Shown: positions 2,962-31,571 of the stretch, piece after piece
Numbering within the stretch: the stretch's first letter is position 1
Layout of the letters: each line of letters starts with the position of its first letter
Assembly: GCF_900220965.1 (NCBI RefSeq)
Contig: NZ_OBQC01000005.1
Coordinates: forward strand, 124,001 to 188,000
Direction: 5' to 3'
From: Ureibacillus acetophenoni
GTDB taxonomy: Bacteria > Bacillota > Bacilli > Bacillales_A > Planococcaceae
Length of the DNA: 64,000 bases
Notes under the pieces: model-generated
What the model saw: the letters and a program-made list of their open reading frames with translations, nothing else
Told to the model about the DNA's origin: nothing
Database searches by the model: none
Made by a program: the position numbers and the translations under genes

Positions 2962-4812
2962 TTAAAAAAGTCCAAGCTCAAAGTATAGCTCCATTGCCCA
3001 GCTTTGTGCTTTTGTAAGGAAGTCTTCCATCATATACGTTTCAATTTCGTCTGAATCCATTGCTCCAAGATTCACTAGATTATCCGTTGGAATATCTACA
3101 TTTTTAATAAATGAACCAGTTTCATCTACTAATATAGCAATATCGAATTCGTACGATTCAATACCGAATCGATGTTCACCTTCCATTGAGTCGCCTTTGT
3201 AAGAAGAGTCACCTTCCCAGAACAGTTCAATTTCATCATAGTCATCTTGGAAATACAATGTACGATAGAATGAACGTTCTCCACCATTAAGTTCTTCTGA
3301 ACCTTCATAAGTAAAACCAGTACCGTAATCATCTAACAATGTAACTTCATCTTCAATTTCGCCATTTTTATAAGTTAAATCACCAACGAAGGATAGCTTT
3401 TCGCCCTCCACTTCAAATGTATAATCCCATTGTTGTTTTTCATTAGTAAATAGACGAGTACCTTCTGCTTTAAACTCACCAATTTCTAAATCACTTTGAA
3501 CTACTGTATCATTACTAATCCAAACTGTGTAACTAATGCCAGTTGGGATATCAGTGTCTTTTAACTCCTTAATAGCTGAGTCTAATCCCTCGTTAATATC
3601 AATATCAAACTCATCATCAAAAGATCCTGCTGTACCTGTAGCGTTTTTCACTGTTTCAAGAATAATATCTTCAAATTTCGGGTCATCTTTAGCCTTTTCA
3701 AGTACTTTTACTAAAATGTCTTTAATTTGGTCGCCACTTAATTCTAATGAAATCTTATTCGCTTTTAAGTTATCGCCAAATACATCAATATCTTCAGCTT
3801 CTTCTTTAAACGCATCTTCTGGAATTGAGTTATAGAAGAATAATAAATATTCTTTTACTAAATACTCCTGATTTTCTTTTGAAAAGACATTTTTGCCCAT
3901 CCAATCATTTAATCCTAATGTCTCTGTGCCTTCATAATAAGGATCTAATGTTCTCATAAAATTACCGAAATCTTCGTCTTTAATTTGAAGAATATCATCA
4001 GTGAATGGGAATCCGAACATTAATTCTTTTGTTGTAACATAAGCAGATATGTCTTCAATCTTCACTCCATTAACATCTGCACCCAAATCAGCTTTTAATA
4101 ATTGTTTGTTCGGGTCTAATTGAACTTCTAAAGAAAGAGTTGAGTTATTTATTATTTCAACAGCCATCTCTTCTTCATAACTATAAAAATCGCCGTTGAT
4201 GTCTGCTCCAATTGTATATGTATATTCTGCTGGTGTTGTTTCTGCTTTTTTAGCCCATTCAACTTCTGGTTGGTAACGATTTTCGAATGCGCTCTTTAGT
4301 TGTTTCCATGAGTTTAATTCAGCAAGTAGTAGTTGGTCTTTTGTAGACTTTTGCATATTGAAGAATGCAAATGCACCGCCACCAATTAATAATAAAGCAA
4401 AAATTGCACTAATAATTGTTACTGCAAATTTTTTAGATTTTGGTTTTTTCGGATTTGAATTTTGATTTCCATATTGGTTTTGATATCCATGCTGGTTTTG
4501 TTGGTTACCGTATTGATTTTGATTTCCAAACTGGTTTTGACCTTGGTATTGCTGTTGATTGTTAAATTGTTGGTTCTGACCTTGGTATTGATTTTGGTTT
4601 GGATTCCAATATTTGTCCTGTTCTGTATATTGACCTGAGTTTTGGTTCATGTATTGATTCTGATTTGGGTCAACATTTTGTTGGTTTGGATTCTGTCCAA
4701 ATTGGTTCTGATTTGCATTACCGTAGTTTTGGTTTGCGTTTCCATCTTGACCTGGATTTTGCCCCTGATTTGGATTTCCACCCTGGTTTGGAAACTGATT
4801 ATCTTCGTTCAA
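2962..4812 (-). CDS. Asn/Gln-rich single-pass membrane protein, first gene of ABC export operon
   Basis: The family is not recognised with certainty. Residues 1-120 are almost entirely Asn, Gln, Gly, Pro and Tyr in short imperfect repeats (NQNQYGNQ-like). Then come a Lys/Pro-rich stop-transfer stretch and one membrane helix at about 129-151, followed by about 465 acidic extracytoplasmic residues without obvious catalytic motifs. With no signal peptide, the low-complexity part should be cytoplasmic. The start is TTG, 8 nt behind AAGGAGG. It leads the operon with two ABC-2 permeases and an ATPase, so it is probably a sensor, accessory or substrate-capturing partner of that exporter (inference). 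Confidence 0.85.
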   Translation of the reverse strand: MNEDNQFPNQGGNPNQGQNPGQDGNANQNYGNANQNQFGQNPNQQNVDPNQNQYMNQNSGQYTEQDKYWNPNQNQYQGQNQQFNNQQQYQGQNQFGNQNQYGNQQNQHGYQNQYGNQNSNPKKPKSKKFAVTIISAIFALLLIGGGAFAFFNMQKSTKDQLLLAELNSWKQLKSAFENRYQPEVEWAKKAETTPAEYTYTIGADINGDFYSYEEEMAVEIINNSTLSLEVQLDPNKQLLKADLGADVNGVKIEDISAYVTTKELMFGFPFTDDILQIKDEDFGNFMRTLDPYYEGTETLGLNDWMGKNVFSKENQEYLVKEYLLFFYNSIPEDAFKEEAEDIDVFGDNLKANKISLELSGDQIKDILVKVLEKAKDDPKFEDIILETVKNATGTAGSFDDEFDIDINEGLDSAIKELKDTDIPTGISYTVWISNDTVVQSDLEIGEFKAEGTRLFTNEKQQWDYTFEVEGEKLSFVGDLTYKNGEIEDEVTLLDDYGTGFTYEGSEELNGGERSFYRTLYFQDDYDEIELFWEGDSSYKGDSMEGEHRFGIESYEFDIAILVDETGSFIKNVDIPTDNLVNLGAMDSDEIETYMMEDFLTKAQSWAMELYFELGLF

Positions 4813-5069
4813 TCTTAATCCTCCTTAATTTCTTTACCTCACTGCTCCATTAAACAGTTGCCTATTTAATCATAGCTGTATTTCCAAATTAGTGTAATAA
4901 GTCTATAGTAAACAAAAATTTACACTTAAGTAAAAGTTTAATATATTATTAGGTAAGTTTATATAGGAAATTTTTAGGATATTCCTAAAGTCCCGTTTTC
5001 CATCTTTAATTTTCTCAAGCTCACAGACATATATTACACTGTTCATCATTGGTTAGAGGAGGCTATGTA

Positions 5070-6479
5070 TTGTTAATTCACGTCGTGAAAAGGGGCGATA
5101 CGCTTTGGCAGCTTGCGAGACTTTACAATGTAACGATCGATTCCATTCAACGTATAAACGAATTACCAAACCCCAATCGCTTATTACTAGGTCAATCAAT
5201 TGTCATACCAGTAGCCGGGACCTTTCACACAATTAAACCTGGTGATACTTTCTGGTCAATTGCAAGTCAGTATGGTATTTCAGTGAATGCAATTCTACAA
5301 GCTAATCAAACAGTTAATCCAAATTCTCTTTTACCAGGTAGTACTCTTTATATTCCACCATTAATCCACATCGTTCAATCAGGACAAAATTTATCCCAAA
5401 TAGCTAGGCTATACGGTACAACTGTAGACGCAATTATAAGGGAAAACCAAATTACTAATCCCAATCTTATCTATGTTGGAAGCCAACTAGTTATTCCAAG
5501 AAGTAAACCTGTCATTGAAGTTAATGCCTATTCATACCAAAAAGATCAAGATGCCGCTAATACCCTCCAACAAATTGGTCACTTATTAACTTATTTCAGC
5601 CCATTTGCTTATATGATTAAAGAAGATGGTACTTTAGAGCCATTTGATGATGATTTAATGCTACAAGCTGCTATATCAAAAAATGCAGTGCCCATGTTAG
5701 CTATTACAAATCTATCTGCAACAAGTACAGGTACAAATCTAGCTCACGCTGTTTTATCTAATCCACAAATAAGAGAAACACTCATAACGAATATTCTTCG
5801 GATAATGGATGAAAAGGGGTATAAAGGAGTAAATATCGATTTTGAATATGTGCCACCAGAAGACCGTGAAAATTATAATCAATTTTTACAGTTAGCCGTA
5901 GATCGTTTACATGAACGTGGATACTTCGTTTCAACAGCAGTAGCACCTAAAACGAGTGGAACACAAACAGGTTTATTGTATACCGCGCATGATTACGAAG
6001 CTCACGGACGAATTGCGGATTTTGTTGTATTAATGACCTATGAATGGGGTTGGAGAGGTGCTTCACCACAAGCAATTTCGCCTATAAATCAAATGAGAAG
6101 AGTTGTTGAATATGCACTATCCGTCATGCCTGCCAATAAGATATTCTTAGGGTTTCAAATTTACGCTAGGGATTGGAAGATTCCTCACAAACAAGGAGAT
6201 GTAGCTGAAACCTTTAGCGCACAAGAAGCAGTTCGAAGAGCAACACAATATAGTGCTGTAATTCAATACGATGAAGTTGCACAGTCACCATTCTTCCGAT
6301 ATACAGATGAAAGTGGCCAAGGTCATGAAGTATGGTTTGAAGATGCTCGTAGTGCGCAAGCAAAATTTGATATGGCAAAACAATATAATCTAAGGGGAAT
6401 TAGTTATTGGGCGTTAGGATATCCATATCCGCAAAATTGGGCTTTACTTAATGATAATTTCACCATACGAAAATTATGA
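5070..6479 (+). CDS. sleL: LysM-GH18 spore peptidoglycan N-acetylglucosaminidase (SleL/YaaH-like)
   Basis: Predicted spore cortex-lytic glycosidase that cleaves muropeptides during germination. Three LysM domains occupy about residues 1-47, 50-97 and 100-144, followed by a GH18 domain to the end. The catalytic motif reads GVNIDFEY, with the acid Glu at about 259. There is no signal peptide, as usual for proteins packed into the spore coat or cortex from the mother cell. An in-frame TTG at 5049 exists, but the TTG at 5070 lies 7 nt behind AGAGGAGG and is chosen (469 residues). SleL/YaaH usually has two LysM domains, so three is slightly unusual. It is followed after 21 nt by another LysM peptidoglycan enzyme. 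The symbol is by family resemblance. Confidence 0.85.
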   Translation: MLIHVVKRGDTLWQLARLYNVTIDSIQRINELPNPNRLLLGQSIVIPVAGTFHTIKPGDTFWSIASQYGISVNAILQANQTVNPNSLLPGSTLYIPPLIHIVQSGQNLSQIARLYGTTVDAIIRENQITNPNLIYVGSQLVIPRSKPVIEVNAYSYQKDQDAANTLQQIGHLLTYFSPFAYMIKEDGTLEPFDDDLMLQAAISKNAVPMLAITNLSATSTGTNLAHAVLSNPQIRETLITNILRIMDEKGYKGVNIDFEYVPPEDRENYNQFLQLAVDRLHERGYFVSTAVAPKTSGTQTGLLYTAHDYEAHGRIADFVVLMTYEWGWRGASPQAISPINQMRRVVEYALSVMPANKIFLGFQIYARDWKIPHKQGDVAETFSAQEAVRRATQYSAVIQYDEVAQSPFFRYTDESGQGHEVWFEDARSAQAKFDMAKQYNLRGISYWALGYPYPQNWALLNDNFTIRKL

Positions 6480-25881: not shown

Positions 25882-27033
25882 ATGAGATTTAAACCGAGCT
25901 ATGCACCAGGACCAACAGATGTACGAGAGAATGTTCGCTTAGCTTTAGCTAAAAAGACAAATAACACTGATTTTGATAAAGAATTTATACAATATTATCA
26001 TGAAGTATGCCAAAAGATGGGCAAGGTTATGGGCACTACAAATGAAGTACTGTTACTAGCTGGAGAAGGGATCCTCGCTTTAGAAGCTGCTTGTGCAAGC
26101 TTAACTGAGCCTGGTGACCGTGTCCTTGTACTTGATAACGGTATATACGGAGAAGGGTTTAAGGATTTTGTCAGAATGTATGGTGGAGAGCCTGTTGTAT
26201 TAAGCTTTGACTATCAAAAATCCATTCCAGTTGAAGAAGTTCGTGATTTTTTAGAAAAAGATCATGACTTCAAATATGCAACATTTGTTCATTGTGATAC
26301 ACCAACGGCTATTTTAAATGATGTTAGTCAACTCTCACCCTTATTAAAAGAATATGGAATTCTAACAGTAGTTGATTCTGTTGCTGGAATGGTTGGGGAA
26401 CCAATTGATGTTGACAAAAATCAAATCGATATTTGCTGCGGTGGAACTCAAAAAGCCATCTCAGCACCTGTAGGATTAGCGATTGTTTCCATTAGTGATG
26501 ACGCTAAAAAATCGATGAATAACCGTAAAACACCGATTGCTTCATATTATGCAAACCTACAAATTTTCAATGGATATATCGAAAAAGGTACATTACCTTA
26601 TACAATGCCTGCAAGCACTGTTGAAGCATTAGAAGTTGCATTAGACAATATTTTAAATGAAGGGCAAAAAGCGGTTTATGATCGACATGCAAAAATTGCA
26701 CAAGCCGTGCGAAAATCTGTTCAAGACTATGGACTATCTTTATTTGTAGAATCAGGAGCCTCTAATACGGTAACGGCAGTCATCATTCCATCAGAAATAG
26801 GCGCATTACGACTACAAAACCACATCCAAGAAACTTACAACTTATACATCGCTACTTCTTTAGCACAATATGAAGATGTGATTTTGCGTATTGGCCATAT
26901 GGGCGAAAATGCCTTCACTGATAAGGTTCTATCTGTATTAACGGTGATTGACAATGGCCTACGTGATTTAGGTTTCGAAGGAAAAGGTAATCTTGGACAA
27001 CTATTCCTAGATGCCCTCAGGGAAGAAAATTAA
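25882..27033 (+). CDS. Class V PLP aminotransferase (alanine-glyoxylate/serine-pyruvate type)
   Basis: A 383-residue fold-type I PLP enzyme. N-terminal APGPTDV, Asp in TVVDSVAGM and the Schiff-base Lys in GGTQKAISAP are typical of alanine-glyoxylate aminotransferases. C-terminal RIGHMGENA is also a family hallmark. No purine-catabolism (puc) genes are nearby, so the in vivo amino donor and acceptor are open. A 272-bp region upstream has no gene. The ATG has a weak AAAAGGG site. Confidence 0.88.
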   Translation: MRFKPSYAPGPTDVRENVRLALAKKTNNTDFDKEFIQYYHEVCQKMGKVMGTTNEVLLLAGEGILALEAACASLTEPGDRVLVLDNGIYGEGFKDFVRMYGGEPVVLSFDYQKSIPVEEVRDFLEKDHDFKYATFVHCDTPTAILNDVSQLSPLLKEYGILTVVDSVAGMVGEPIDVDKNQIDICCGGTQKAISAPVGLAIVSISDDAKKSMNNRKTPIASYYANLQIFNGYIEKGTLPYTMPASTVEALEVALDNILNEGQKAVYDRHAKIAQAVRKSVQDYGLSLFVESGASNTVTAVIIPSEIGALRLQNHIQETYNLYIATSLAQYEDVILRIGHMGENAFTDKVLSVLTVIDNGLRDLGFEGKGNLGQLFLDALREEN

Positions 27034-27048
27034 GAACGTAATGAAATC

Positions 27049-27083
27049 AACACCCCCCACTCAGTTAACGAGTGGGGGGTGTT
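27049..27083 (+). terminator. GC-rich hairpin after the aminotransferase gene
   Basis: A 13-bp perfect stem (AACACCCCCCACT and its complement) with a 9-nt loop. The T-tract is weak. Confidence 0.75.
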
Positions 27084-27156: not shown

Positions 27157-27344
27157 AATAAGCGTAAATTCTACCGTTATTTTCAAAATGTGGATTATTT
27201 CGGAGCGAATAAGGGGAAATTTTACCGTTAAGTATTAAAATATCGCCCTTTTTCACCTTTTTAAAGTCAATAAGAGTAAATTCTCCCCCTATTTTAACTA
27301 TTTTTAGGGTTGTTTACTAAATAGGGGTAAATTTTACCCCTATT
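27157..27344. repeat. Array of four phased 25-bp palindromes
   Basis: Copies at 27157-27181, 27208-27232, 27269-27293 and 27320-27344 share a consensus near AATAAGGGTAAATTYTACC then STTATT. Each is a full or partial palindrome; the last has 13-bp perfect arms (27318-27346). Start-to-start distances are 51, 61 and 51 bp, with gaps of 26, 36 and 26 bp, i.e. whole helical turns apart. The last copy abuts the stop codon of the nuclease gene. The region between the aminotransferase terminator and the nuclease gene holds nothing else. Confidence 0.8.
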
Positions 27345-27346
27345 TA

Positions 27347-28009
27347 CTAGATTGGGCTTTTAATTTGATCACCCAAACGATAAGAACGAATTCTCACAGT
27401 CCCCGATGCGGGAACAAGCATCTTTTTATCTACGAGATTAGAAAGTATATTTCTTACTGTCTTCGTACTTAGGTTCAAATACTTCTCGACTTCTTTAGGT
27501 GTTATGTTTTCTCCTTTTCGGATCGCTAGCCGAAGTACTTCCTTCTCCACTATGGTCAGTGTGGTCTGATCCATCTCATCCCCTAACCATCTGCCAATCA
27601 CTTGCTGTACAATTTGTTGGCATCGACGAGGCTGCTCTTTTACTTGGTCGTAAGAAAAGCGAATCACCGTCCATCCATCAATTACCAATTGATTTTGCCG
27701 TTCTAAGCTGTCGGAAAATTGCCATCTGCTTATGTTCCTTAAGTGAGGACCATAACCATCTATTTCAAAGCAAATACGGATGGCAGGACGAATATAGGCA
27801 AAATCCAAATATCTTTTTCCATCTTTGTAATCATTAACTTCATATTCTGGATGTAGAAACCGGAAATGGTTAAATAATGGCCACCACACCTGTTTTAAAA
27901 ACAACATTTCAGCATGATTATGACCTTCTTGTAATCGTCGCAGTCGTTCACCAGTTCTTGCCTGTAAATGGTCATTCATAAAAGTTTGATATACTTCTTC
28001 AAACCCCAT
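27347..28009 (-). CDS. DUF559/Vsr-type nuclease fused to a winged-helix domain
   Basis: A 220-residue protein. Residues about 20-145 look like a PD-(D/E)XK endonuclease of the DUF559/very-short-patch-repair type: HAEMLFL (Glu), YLDFAYI (Asp), CFEIDGYGPH (Glu, Asp, His), DSLERQNQL and GWTVIRFSYDQV. Residues about 150-215 form a helix-turn-helix (ITPKEVEKYLNLSTKTVRN) ending in a wing-like segment. The putative active-site residues are intact. ATG behind AGGAGG. It lies alone, flanked by palindromic repeats on the 3' side and a weaker copy on the 5' side. It could cut or merely bind those sites; that is inference. Confidence 0.8.
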   Translation of the reverse strand: MGFEEVYQTFMNDHLQARTGERLRRLQEGHNHAEMLFLKQVWWPLFNHFRFLHPEYEVNDYKDGKRYLDFAYIRPAIRICFEIDGYGPHLRNISRWQFSDSLERQNQLVIDGWTVIRFSYDQVKEQPRRCQQIVQQVIGRWLGDEMDQTTLTIVEKEVLRLAIRKGENITPKEVEKYLNLSTKTVRNILSNLVDKKMLVPASGTVRIRSYRLGDQIKSPI

Positions 28010-28550
28010 AGTATCTATCCTCCTATCTAATGGTCATTTGCTAATATATAACTACGGGAATTTACACCGTTACTAAATTACAAATATTAATCGTTACTTA
28101 ACACATCTCCATTACTTATTTCTTCACTAGAAAAATATTAATGAGTAATTCGGGTAATAAAAGTGAGTTTAATCTAATTTAATATGGAGATATTAAAAGG
28201 CAAAAGAAGATTTGCAAAGGAGCATATAAGAAAAAGACTGAGGATAAAACTTATTTTTAGTTTAATAGAATTCCTCAACTTGTCAATTCCATTTTCTTAT
28301 TACAACAAGTGAAGAAGATCTTAAAGTGGGTTAAGTTTAAAACCATTTTGTGTCACCTTAGGAGCAAATTTATAAAATGGCATTTCCATATATAAATCTA
28401 ATCTAAATAATAAATTAGATTTTTTAGTATCTTAACTTTACAATTGAATGGGAAAACGAAAGTTTGGAAAGACATATAAGTCATGTCATACATTTCATTA
28501 TTATCCTCTTTCCTCTTATCTGTTTTTTAATTTATAAAGGAGTTCTACAA
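28010..28550. other. Intergenic region between the nuclease and the VCBS lipoprotein
   Basis: 541 bp without a convincing gene. It holds a diverged fifth palindrome-like copy at 28050-28074 (16 of 25 bases identical to the first array copy) and a hairpin with T-run at 28394-28426 (AAATCTAAT/ATTAGATTT). A 40-codon frame near 28184 lacks a ribosome site and is not called. Confidence 0.55.
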
Positions 28551-31500
28551 ATGAAAATAAAATTTGCAGCAATAATCTTGTTAATCTTTGCTACTATATT
28601 AGCTAGCTGTACACAGAATAATGAAGAAATTAATAACTTCGTAAAAAATCCAGAAGAAAATATTAAAAACACCCCTTCTGACCCTTCGAATAATTTAGTT
28701 CAATTATTGATTTTGTTTAACGGAGAGGAATTTAACTCTAAAAGTATTTTACATCACTTCCAACAAACATTAGTTGCAGATGTCAATGTTGAGGTAAAAT
28801 CACTAGATGAATTTTCCACAAGTGACTCATACGATTTAGTTTATTTAGATAGAAATTTAAATCTTGAGAGCTCTCCTATTAAAGAGCAACTTATCGAATA
28901 CGTAGAAAATGGAGGAACTTTATTTTTATCTCATGAATACGCACAAGAGTTTCCTTCAAATTTTACCGGAATTGAACAACTCAAAGAAGTAACTGATAAT
29001 CAATTAACATTTACTTACCCAGAAGTTCGTTTAAACTTACAAGGTCTACAAACTGTTTGGAAGTCCTTTAGTGATGTTTATGATCAGTACGAGGGACTTG
29101 ACCCAGAACTTCATATAAATTTTAAAGAGGCTGCAGTTGTAAACACAGCTACACCACTGGTGAAAAAAGGTGACTTATCGTTACTTACTGTAAATGATAC
29201 AGGAAATGGTCACGTAATCTGGGCTAACAATTTCTTACCAAATGAACAGTTTATTACACGCTTTGACCTAGTGCCTGAAAATGACCAGGAATATTTCCAC
29301 TTTGGATATGCCAGTGCAAATTACTTGTTTAGAAACGAATTATTAAAATTTGTATCAAAGGAAAAACATGGGTTCGCAATTCAAAAAACTTACGGCCCAT
29401 ATGGTAGACCAGGACTTGCATGGCAAGCCCATTATGAATCGCTCTATTCCTTTGTTCTAGAAGATATGATTAGATTTACTGATTTGCTTGAAGTTCATAA
29501 TCAAATTCCAACATTTTCCGTTGTAAGAGGAAGTTATCGTGGTGGACGATGGTATGAATCCCTTCGATTTATCGAAAATATAGGAAGTAATTCAGATCCT
29601 AAGTTTGTAAATGTTGAAGAAAACTCATTCTTTTCTGCTGGAAAAGCTATAAAAACGGAAAGCGATATTTTGAAATTTGAAAGTTACCCAGGTTACAACT
29701 CTCTTTTATCACCTATTACAGAACCATATCGTGCTTATATTTCAATAAATGATTGGAACCAAGATTCTAAGCAAGATCTATTCATTGGTTCATACAATGG
29801 AAATGTTTACTACCTAGAGAATACGGGTAAAGCGACGGATTTAACATTTAAGGAACCACAAATGCTAGAAGGTATACATGTAAATCAAAATGCAGCTCCA
29901 CATGTATATGATTGGAATAATGACGGACATGATGATTTACTCGTAGGTGACGGAAATGGCAACGTGTTCTTATTTGCAAATAAAGGTAACCAAACTTTTG
30001 AGGCTGCTGTTTCATTCCAAGTAGATGGAAATCTACTTAACCTAGGTGGTGCAATATCACCATTTGTAACAGATTGGAATGAGGATGGCATTGCTGACTT
30101 ATTAGTCGGACTTCCAAATGGTCAACTTTATTTCTATGAAAATTTAAAAGAAGGAAGCACTGAACTTGAAGCACCAATTGCTATTAAAACAACAGATGGT
30201 GTTTTACAAGTTAATGAGTACGCTGCTCCTTTTGCTATTGATTGGAATGAAGATGGCAAGAAAGATTTACTAGTCGGAGATGGAAATGGTGAAATTTCAC
30301 TTGTCCTTCGCGATAGCCAAGGTAATTTAGTGAATGAGGGACCGATTACTGGAAATACAAAAAACTTCTTTGGTACTAATACTGTAAAGGTTGGACATTT
30401 TGCAGTACCAGCTGTTATTGATTGGAATAATGACGGTAAGAAGGATTTAATTACCGGGCATTTAGAATATGGTAGTCCATATGCAATTGACGACCCACTA
30501 TTCCCTTATAAAGAGGAGTTCCAAAAAAATATTCAATATGTACAAAACAAACATATCCCACTTATCCCACATATGTATTTAAATGAATATATGTCGGATG
30601 AAGCAGAAAAACGTGAAATGGAACTTCATAAGAAGGCATTTAATGATCTTGGAATTCCTTGGGATACAGATACAGGGGTTAATCATCATACTTGGCGTAT
30701 TAATAAAAATGCATTGCAATCATTCAATAATCAAAAAGAAATGGGAATTTGGTGGAACTTTGGTTTTAACCCACCTAACGTAAAAACTGCTCCACGGGAT
30801 GGAAAGGAATTTTTAATGGTTATTCCTTTTATGCTCCCTGATAGTACCAATAATCAAGCTTTCCAGGAATTTATGTTGTTCTCACCAGCACCAAATGGCC
30901 TAAATTTCCCACAAGCTTGGGAGGGGTTGGCTAAATATGATGTTCCACTTACGTATTTTGAACATGTTGAGCATAGTATGGATCCAGGGACAGAAGTTTA
31001 CCAAAAGGTATTAGATGAGATTACATTTATGAATAATTTTAGAGGTCAATATTCATATACCTTTATGACTGAGGAACAAATGGCCCGCGCAATGTTAAAT
31101 ACGTTTTATACAAAGGTTGATGTACAAGTCACAGATAGTCAGATTACTGTAGTTCCTGACTACTCAAATGTACCTGAACATGTTAACGAATATAAACATA
31201 CTCTTGGAATAAAGCTTGAGCCCGGTGAAAAATTTAAAGATCAAAAAATAAATACATCAAGCATGTTCTATTATGAAGGAAATGAAAGCTATTATCTTGG
31301 AGTTGAACAACCGATTAATGTTGAATTTGTTGATGAAACTACAATTTTTGATACGATTCATATCGTAAAAACTAATAGTCCAGTTTCTATTGAAACTAAA
31401 GATAATTCAATTAACCTAACATTAGGAACTAAAGGTATGCAAGAGATAAAAATATATTCTCCTATTGAATTAGACATTATTGGAGAAGATTTAAAGGTAA

Positions 31501-31571
31501 CAAAAGAAGAAAATTACTATACCATTATTCACTATGGAGATATTGTTGAAGTGACATTACAACCTAAATAA
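28551..31571 (+). CDS. Large lipoprotein with five VCBS/FG-GAP repeats
   Basis: A 1006-residue surface lipoprotein. A signal peptide ends at LASC (Cys19). Residues about 45-280 resemble a glutamine-amidotransferase-like (flavodoxin-type) fold (DLVYLDRNLN, YVENGGTLFLSHEY). Five beta-propeller-type repeats with Ca-binding loops follow: DWNQDSKQD, DWNNDGHDD, DWNEDGIAD, DWNEDGKKD and DWNNDGKKD. A C-terminal region of about 350 residues is of unknown type, with many His, Trp and aromatic residues. ATG 28551 follows AAAGGAG; a longer in-frame version starts 29 codons earlier. Monocistronic. A role in polysaccharide or wall processing is only a guess. Confidence 0.85.
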   Translation: MKIKFAAIILLIFATILASCTQNNEEINNFVKNPEENIKNTPSDPSNNLVQLLILFNGEEFNSKSILHHFQQTLVADVNVEVKSLDEFSTSDSYDLVYLDRNLNLESSPIKEQLIEYVENGGTLFLSHEYAQEFPSNFTGIEQLKEVTDNQLTFTYPEVRLNLQGLQTVWKSFSDVYDQYEGLDPELHINFKEAAVVNTATPLVKKGDLSLLTVNDTGNGHVIWANNFLPNEQFITRFDLVPENDQEYFHFGYASANYLFRNELLKFVSKEKHGFAIQKTYGPYGRPGLAWQAHYESLYSFVLEDMIRFTDLLEVHNQIPTFSVVRGSYRGGRWYESLRFIENIGSNSDPKFVNVEENSFFSAGKAIKTESDILKFESYPGYNSLLSPITEPYRAYISINDWNQDSKQDLFIGSYNGNVYYLENTGKATDLTFKEPQMLEGIHVNQNAAPHVYDWNNDGHDDLLVGDGNGNVFLFANKGNQTFEAAVSFQVDGNLLNLGGAISPFVTDWNEDGIADLLVGLPNGQLYFYENLKEGSTELEAPIAIKTTDGVLQVNEYAAPFAIDWNEDGKKDLLVGDGNGEISLVLRDSQGNLVNEGPITGNTKNFFGTNTVKVGHFAVPAVIDWNNDGKKDLITGHLEYGSPYAIDDPLFPYKEEFQKNIQYVQNKHIPLIPHMYLNEYMSDEAEKREMELHKKAFNDLGIPWDTDTGVNHHTWRINKNALQSFNNQKEMGIWWNFGFNPPNVKTAPRDGKEFLMVIPFMLPDSTNNQAFQEFMLFSPAPNGLNFPQAWEGLAKYDVPLTYFEHVEHSMDPGTEVYQKVLDEITFMNNFRGQYSYTFMTEEQMARAMLNTFYTKVDVQVTDSQITVVPDYSNVPEHVNEYKHTLGIKLEPGEKFKDQKINTSSMFYYEGNESYYLGVEQPINVEFVDETTIFDTIHIVKTNSPVSIETKDNSINLTLGTKGMQEIKIYSPIELDIIGEDLKVTKEENYYTIIHYGDIVEVTLQPK

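Follow-up and report, generated by a model that had tools for sequence, protein, structure and literature searches.

A putative Vsr-like nuclease-winged-helix gene of Bacillales and its arrays of phased palindromes

The locus and its gene

The window, i.e. the whole 64-kb stretch of DNA analysed here, carries a reverse-strand gene for a 220-residue protein in which a putative nuclease domain is joined to a predicted winged helix, and an array of four 25-bp palindromic boxes adjoins the stop codon. The features of the locus are as follows.

27049–27083, no strand: perfect 14-bp inverted repeat with a 7-nt loop, candidate terminator
27157–27181, no strand: palindromic box at the outer array end, 9 of 12 pairs
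27208–27232, no strand: palindromic box, 8 of 12 pairs
27269–27293, no strand: palindromic box, 8 of 12 pairs
27320–27344, no strand: palindromic box adjoining the stop codon, 12 of 12 pairs
27157–27347, reverse strand: four-box array of about 190 bp, R1 profile match at C23:151157-151347 with E 9.5e-31
27347–28009, reverse strand: nuclease-winged-helix gene, an ORF of 220 residues with its stop codon at 27347–27349
Residues ~1–140 of the 220-residue protein, N-terminal: putative DUF559/Vsr-like PD-(D/E)XK nuclease domain, based on the DUF559 match and invariant residues
Residues ~150–220 of the 220-residue protein, C-terminal: winged helix-turn-helix, based on the secondary structure of the AlphaFold2 (AF2) model
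28049–28073 (approximate), no strand: one diverged box within the 5' leader, some 40 bp ahead of the start codon, recognized by eye

The boxes start at positions 27157, 27208, 27269, and 27320, in agreement with the 51/61/51 spacing given by the first-pass annotation, and the last one extends to 27344, leaving 2 bp to the stop codon, where the array had been said to end. With the 51/61/51 geometry, the array has the highest summed palindrome score of the 64-kb window (37 out of 48; next 29), and it remains the best when any d1/d2/d1 spacing with steps of 40–70 bp is allowed (next 32); the top score in 300 simulated Markov sequences of 8 kb with local base steps was 29. R1, a sequence-only profile of 60 gene-linked arrays that includes those of G007, G014, G024, and G036 (as L095, L091, L049, and L101) and none from the window genome, identifies the window array as the same element that lies 3' of homologues and is dispersed in the genome. 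On the other side of the gene, where a diverged copy had been reported, a box is indeed seen at about 28049–28073, but it is one weak box, found by eye; it is a possible operator. The inverted repeat at 27049–27083 is a probable terminator between the nuclease gene and the convergent gene at 25882–27033, which by eye is aminotransferase-like. An adjoining 1035-residue ORF (28464–31571) has a lipoprotein-like start and DWNxDGxxDLLVG-type repeats (FG-GAP-like, by eye). The earlier description of a lone gene holds for the single ORF beside the array but not for the genome, which has a second copy (paralogue) with 88% identity and arrays that are not confined to the gene.

The whole protein scores 19.7 bits with the Pfam DUF559 model, just under the cut-off of 20.6, and its N-domain alone scores just over it (21.0). 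DUF559 matches 24 of 27 homologous N-domains at E ≤ 0.01, and residues D69, E82, G85, and H89 do not vary in alignments of 16 and of 27 homologues. The proposed domain with intact residues is thereby upheld, and the DUF559 match together with the conserved D, E, and H places it, putatively, among the DUF559/Vsr-like PD-(D/E)XK nucleases. As for the proposed helix-turn-helix, all sequence matches of this kind lie under the curated cut-offs, but the C-terminal secondary structure in the AF2 model reads as a winged helix (mean pLDDT of 82 over the full length and 90 for the N-domain). The best fold match of the N-domain in the PDB, searched with Foldseek, is the putative endonuclease NGO0050 (3hrl, E 2.6e-3, probability 1.00), followed by R2 retrotransposon proteins, AbaSI, and the catalytic domain of I-Bth0305I (3r3p; rank 4–5, E 0.08–0.09, probability 0.94–0.96). 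No PDB match of the N-domain had an E value below 0.001, nor had any match in the fold search with the full-length protein, and a profile of the N-domain gave nothing useful against the sequences of solved structures. Eleven viral models fall below E 0.001 for the N-domain fold, several of them named DUF559 or endonuclease.

Sequence comparison indicates that the gene is under purifying selection in five homologue pairs with uninterrupted frames, with dN/dS values of 0.08–0.16 and a C-terminal dN at least as high as the N-terminal dN in each pair. The three other pairs gave 0.26 (L079/L104), 0.81 (L108/L109), and no value (L043/L103). An in-frame stop is found inside the matched span in 8 of 96 loci, among them L103, L104, L108, and L109. 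The last two are gene copies about 10 kb apart on scaffold7 of Bacillus sp. FJAT-29814, both with interrupted frames and both followed by arrays.

As far as searched, the gene is chromosomal: it matches none of 50,697 phage records and two of 72,556 plasmid records, one of the two being a 2.7-Mb replicon. A probable nuclease with many chromosomal sites and a patchy distribution could belong to a defence or self/non-self system in which the chromosomal arrays mark or titrate the nuclease. However, the gene stands alone, and the typical mobile defence context is absent in view of the phage and plasmid counts. PADLOC gave only weak matches, none better than E 0.0035, and these cover residues 116–212, outside the catalytic residues, with no model of a known anti-phage system matching over the nuclease domain. 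A defence or phage gene is set aside on these grounds as very improbable.

Linkage of gene and array across loci and genomes

A homologue scan of 84,980 species genomes gave at least 578 relatives, of which the best 80 loci were retained; 16 loci from separate genome searches bring the set to 96, or 92 once L024, L027, L028, and L029, duplicates of L049, L091, L095, and L101, are dropped. In 67 of these 92 loci (71 of 96 with the duplicates), the element lies at most 1.5 kb downstream of the gene, compared with 2/74 and 3/75 control segments 2–3.5 kb away, and for 61 of these 67 its start is no more than 30 bp from the stop codon. At 73% protein identity or more, a subset of 69 loci that includes the window's gene and its paralogue, the element is downstream in 67 and the remaining two have an array upstream, so that the case foreseen by the first-pass annotation, homologues devoid of palindromes, does not arise in this subset. 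With a consensus-free detector, 61/87 loci likewise had similar palindromes on the downstream side, compared with 4/74 and 2/75 of the far segments. In 64 aligned elements (the 71 without the four duplicates and L046, L065, and L077), the box centres are at 18, 69, 130, and 181, and boxes 1 and 2 approximate the reverse complement of boxes 4 and 3, which makes the array a large imperfect inverted repeat.

An array is also present at most 1.5 kb upstream of the gene in 22 of the 92 loci, in the same orientation as the downstream array in 20 of them: 18 loci carry direct arrays on both sides, and two have an upstream direct array without a downstream one. In 11 of 18 testable loci (one a near tie), the upstream array is more similar to its own downstream array than to that of any other locus, and in L085 the two are up to 100% identical.

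Two loci show rearranged arrays. In L103 (Neobacillus cucumis DSM 101566), the array is repeated in tandem at positions 4600–5700, and the 3' piece of the gene attached to each copy becomes shorter step by step, in a manner resembling 5' truncation. In L077 (Rossellomorea vietnamensis NBRC 101237), an insertion at about 4720–6100 lies inside the array, at the second box, and carries a 393-residue transposase-like ORF (Mutator/IS256-like by eye); L077 was accordingly rejected as a damaged array.

The genome-wide search for the palindromes, which had been recommended as a check, located arrays in 26 places of the window genome, scattered between genes; they correspond to at least 60 R1 matches in 31 non-overlapping stretches, with stretches within 500 bp merged into one place. 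R1 matches are counted on both strands, and the large counts are lower bounds. Within the genus, R1 matches number at least 59–102 per genome in the six that have the full gene, while 16 of the 19 genomes without the gene have none and G004, G013, and G018 have 3, 2, and 17, respectively. Among 200 genomes of the family, the full-length gene occurs in eight and appears dispensable on this count; the remaining protein matches cover the helix-turn-helix end only. All eight gene-positive genomes have at least 12 scored array candidates each, whereas 14 of the 192 genomes without the gene have any array match at E ≤ 1e-3 and four (G004, G013, G133, and G018) have one at E ≤ 1e-10. Strong arrays are therefore present in 8/8 gene-positive versus 4/192 gene-negative genomes (Fisher, 9e-12), in contrast to a palindrome with no tie to this gene family, the outcome that had been named as adverse. 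Across the genomes compared, array copy number depends on the resident gene.

The four exceptions differ in kind. The G018 assembly is 76% complete. G133 is a near-complete genome without the gene and has a single strong array match (G133:C1:903149-903342, E 5.7e-12), which counts against the explanation favoured below. The G004 array (L154, G004:C10 1473-1700) is preceded by a match to the gene end of 13 residues (206–218, 11 of 13 identical) in a genome that has nothing else of the gene and almost no arrays; given this remnant, G004 probably once had the gene and then lost it. The solitary array of G013 was rejected as a clean empty site, its right flank being common to G014 alone among the genus genomes searched.

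Two further observations concern dispersed arrays. A PreQ1 riboswitch above the gathering score (L018 1928-1974, G000:C11 near 197.5 kb) lies a few hundred bases from one of them, and at G000:C34 58830-59227 (L017) five or more boxes follow one another regularly every 52 bp, unlike the 51/61/51 unit.

Geometry, constraint, and mobility of the arrays

Several of the divergent homologues (31–64% identity) have quite different boxes at similar spacings, mostly 51, 61–62, 71–72, and 41–42 bp. The box patterns of five loci were typed by hand after reading the sequences: L040 has the 51/61/51 spacing, L118 51/71/51, and L120 51/72/50, while L041 contains twelve box copies at 51-bp steps and L038 has boxes 41–53 bp apart. 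A consensus-free scan found at least two similar palindromes in 13 of 23 divergent loci and no similar pair in the other 10, the latter count weighing against the favoured explanation; with the consensus-free detector, 12/21 downstream segments were positive versus 0/14 and 0/13 far segments. The 19 locus-spacing values of the divergent loci, misfits of 36, 54, and 58 bp included, cluster near multiples of 10.25 bp (Rayleigh p ~2e-4), a period chosen post hoc, with 10.0–10.6 giving similar results. The helical phasing read in the window array thus extends to divergent families, whose steps are also near whole turns.

A different palindrome is dispersed in G038, a genome of the same class as the window genome with four paralogues of the gene. 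With up to two mismatches allowed, the palindrome of the L039 paralogue, unrelated to the window element, is matched 137 times forward and 122 times in reverse, palindromic sites being able to register on both strands, and its reversed control 0 and 2 times. The eight loci measured, one beside the L039 gene and one near another paralogue, are all spaced 51/62/51 or 51/62/50. For dispersed arrays, the gene-linked boxes of the same genome are the best match in 25/41, and in 39/41 when similar cores are grouped (G002 with G007 and paralogue b; G020 with G024), a post hoc grouping in which one of the 39 (L149) is a misplaced box call. The boxes of paralogue b of the window genome are the best match for 0/21 arrays of that genome, again at odds with the favoured explanation. 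On these figures the tie between box core and resident gene is clear in sequence comparisons between distant families, whereas inside the genus it is no more than suggestive.

Since the array mostly begins at the stop codon, extends over about 190 conserved nt, and is made of boxes that could each form a hairpin, it might be a structured RNA transcribed with the gene, such as a guide or a 3' UTR element. Within the boxes of the aligned elements, however, 1845 cells are paired and the mismatches show no G-U preference, A-C (157) being at least as frequent as G-T (118), with 439 others. No Rfam family reached the gathering score at the arrays of the 12 loci searched, one miRNA family lying below it. 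The wholesale change of sequence at constant, near-whole-turn spacing also argues against an RNA, and this reading, set aside for the mismatch types and the turn-like spacing, appears scarcely credible. Between G224 and G225, six orthologous array pairs were compared, of which one is gene-linked; identity is 562/600 in boxes, 461/533 in spacers, and 913/1219 in flanks (boxes versus spacers, p 5e-5). Boxes exceed spacers in five of the six pairs; in the sixth, the spacers are better kept, which does not favour the explanation preferred here. As box positions change less than spacers and mismatches lack a G-U preference, the palindromes look like double-stranded DNA sites.

Comparison of related genomes shows that arrays are gained, lost, duplicated, and homogenised. 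The array-only copy L127 and L135 share 89% identity over 198 bp that comprise little beyond the array, and L135 itself has longer flanks in common with seven other copies. On one G225 contig, five of the six listed non-gene arrays have an orthologous array in G224, so most of the compared arrays appear old, which speaks against the favoured explanation. The sixth, absent from G224, is a 283-bp MITE-like insertion (L180 2947-3229, G225:C1) with respect to the empty site L193; it contains a whole four-box array between the terminal inverted repeats TTAAGGCTCTGT and ACAGAGCCTAA and has TTTAAA on both sides, and the empty allele reads TTTATAAA. Because of the inverted repeats and the TTTAAA on both sides, another transposase may have moved this array, a further point against the favoured explanation. 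In G226 and G227, two presence/absence sites show net differences of 590–790 bp with ends that are not clear, which likewise tells against it, and at a third site one genome appears to keep just two boxes. No terminal inverted repeats were seen at L195/L196 and L199/L200. L188, L201, and L203, with no counterpart in the expected stretch, are outside the presence/absence comparison, and none of the loci compared resolved into a gene-empty allele with a single array.

Ordinary transposases could spread the arrays inside MITEs, with the gene a passenger or a mere binder, in line with the L180/L193 insertion and with a G000 array subfamily of about 300 bp with TIR-like ends (by eye). Other array copies are nevertheless without common flanks, and a passenger predicts neither the abundance of arrays tracking the gene across genomes nor the recurrence of the geometry with unrelated palindromes; as a general account we find it improbable. 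Nothing in these comparisons identifies the nuclease in particular as what moves the arrays, and for one array at least the vehicle was a MITE-like element.

In the window genome, 14 of 25 array places lie between convergent genes, nine between tandem and two between divergent genes, and none inside an ORF (simple ORF finder); without the four places beside the two genes, the numbers are 11, 8, and 2 of 21. The 14 convergent places of 25 give a p value of 9e-4 against an assumed genome-wide convergent share of 25%. These locations, the purifying selection in the five clean pairs, the better conservation of boxes than of spacers and flanks in the summed G224/G225 pairs, and the arrays common to both species could be consistent with a domesticated chromosome-binding or regulatory protein, for which the arrays would form an operator network serving chromosome organisation or gene ends and whose nuclease would rarely act or would repair. 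This alternative deserves attention but seems unlikely, as opposed to it are the dispensability of the gene in the family, the in-frame stops within the matched span, and the putative catalytic residues invariant in all 27 aligned N-domains.

Proposed mechanism and comparison with known systems

The explanation that we consider probable, by a modest balance of the evidence, is that the gene product is a nuclease that brings its own domain for DNA recognition, that the palindromes are its predicted binding sites, and that the unit of gene and array seeds further arrays. The linkage of gene and array, the dependence of array abundance on the gene, the geometry, the changed cores, and the constraint on the boxes are all directly visible in the compared sequences, from which binding of the protein to the boxes is the simplest inference. 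A dimer of the nuclease-winged-helix protein would bind each 25-bp palindrome through its winged helices, and four dimers would lie on one DNA face because the boxes are about 4–7 helical turns apart (usually 5/6/5). Protein and sites would evolve together, each gene lineage therefore having its own palindrome at a constant geometry. Gene and array would form a chromosomal unit, patchy in its occurrence and lost at times, from which tens of arrays without a gene have been seeded. The Vsr-like domain would cut bound arrays, or single boxes that match, either at the site or next to it, and recombination repair would then copy, duplicate, or homogenise arrays; such cutting and nuclease-driven copying are preferred but unproven. 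Any benefit to the cell is inferred.

If this explanation is true, a second, unrelated enzyme would imply more than one origin of partnerships between nucleases and repeats, and would account for a class of repeats found between genes in the genomes of many Bacillaceae, Planococcaceae, and Paenibacillaceae. With palindromes that vary while the 5/6/5-turn geometry is conserved, the arrays lend themselves as a series for following the joint change of a DNA-binding protein and its sites, and the gene family provides Vsr-like nucleases whose targets are predicted. Should the protein organise the chromosome instead, it would represent a chromosome-organising factor of a new class.

Bacterial genomes commonly contain dispersed palindromic repeats, and to our knowledge the best-known dedicated partner enzyme is the RAYT family. 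In the available text of PMC2817692, RAYTs are IS200/IS605-like tyrosine transposases whose gene is flanked by two inverted REPs, and those that satisfy its definition are confined to gammaproteobacteria. The resemblance to REP-associated systems noted by the first-pass annotation is apt in logic: as far as that text goes, both systems comprise a lone chromosomal gene flanked by its own palindromic repeat, which is dispersed between genes, follows the resident gene in copy number (here 8/8 versus 4/192), and occurs in several families per genome (PMC2817692). Gene and palindrome change together in RAYT-REP according to the same text, and distinct paralogues or homologues have distinct palindromes here (PMC2817692). 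The differences from the system described there are that the enzyme is DUF559/Vsr-like instead of a tyrosine transposase, the hosts are Bacillales, and the unit is a four-box array at near-whole-turn spacings, with two-sided arrays mostly direct (PMC2817692). Thus, 20/22 upstream arrays are direct and do not form two inverted flanking repeats, the Pfam search of the 220-residue protein gave DUF559 and helix-turn-helix matches and none to Transposase_17, and the nearest N-domain folds are endonucleases of types other than IS200/IS605-like tyrosine transposases. Going by the available text of PMC2817692, the gene-array system has RAYT-REP logic without being a member by enzyme and flanking arrangement. 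We rate it as categorically new because no part of it is homologous to RAYT-REP parts; the partnership looks like a previously undescribed nuclease-repeat pairing whose logic has a RAYT-REP precedent. More specifically, and only tentatively, it may be an independent counterpart of RAYT-REP, in which a Bacillales Vsr-like nuclease-winged-helix protein cuts phased palindromes and so copies its own array, with specificities that co-diversify and become mutually separate.

The homing endonuclease I-Bth0305I, which we take to be a Vsr-like enzyme from phage, is among the nearest N-domain folds in the PDB; unlike for a homing enzyme of this type, no intron, intein, or interrupted target gene was seen here, and a palindromic multi-site array is present instead. 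NGO0050, the best N-domain fold match and a DUF559 protein, is a 94-residue chain, too short for a winged helix, and we know of no link to repeats for DUF559 or NGO0050. In the open papers listed by literature searches, titles and abstract beginnings contained no DUF559-repeat link, which is weak evidence of absence as most subscription journals and bioRxiv lie outside this set. Stem-loop-containing repeat families of Bacillus genomes, bcr1 and Bhal-1, are described in PMC2267715; judged by that description they are likewise stem-loop repeats, and no partner gene is named in its available text.

Minor observations concern the expression of the gene. At the G038 loci L032, L039, and L041, terminator-like hairpins followed by T runs are seen by eye in the leader directly before the start codon, suggesting attenuated expression. 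A TTGACA/TAAACT promoter-like pair is found by eye a few hundred bp upstream of the gene in several Bacillaceae and Planococcaceae loci.
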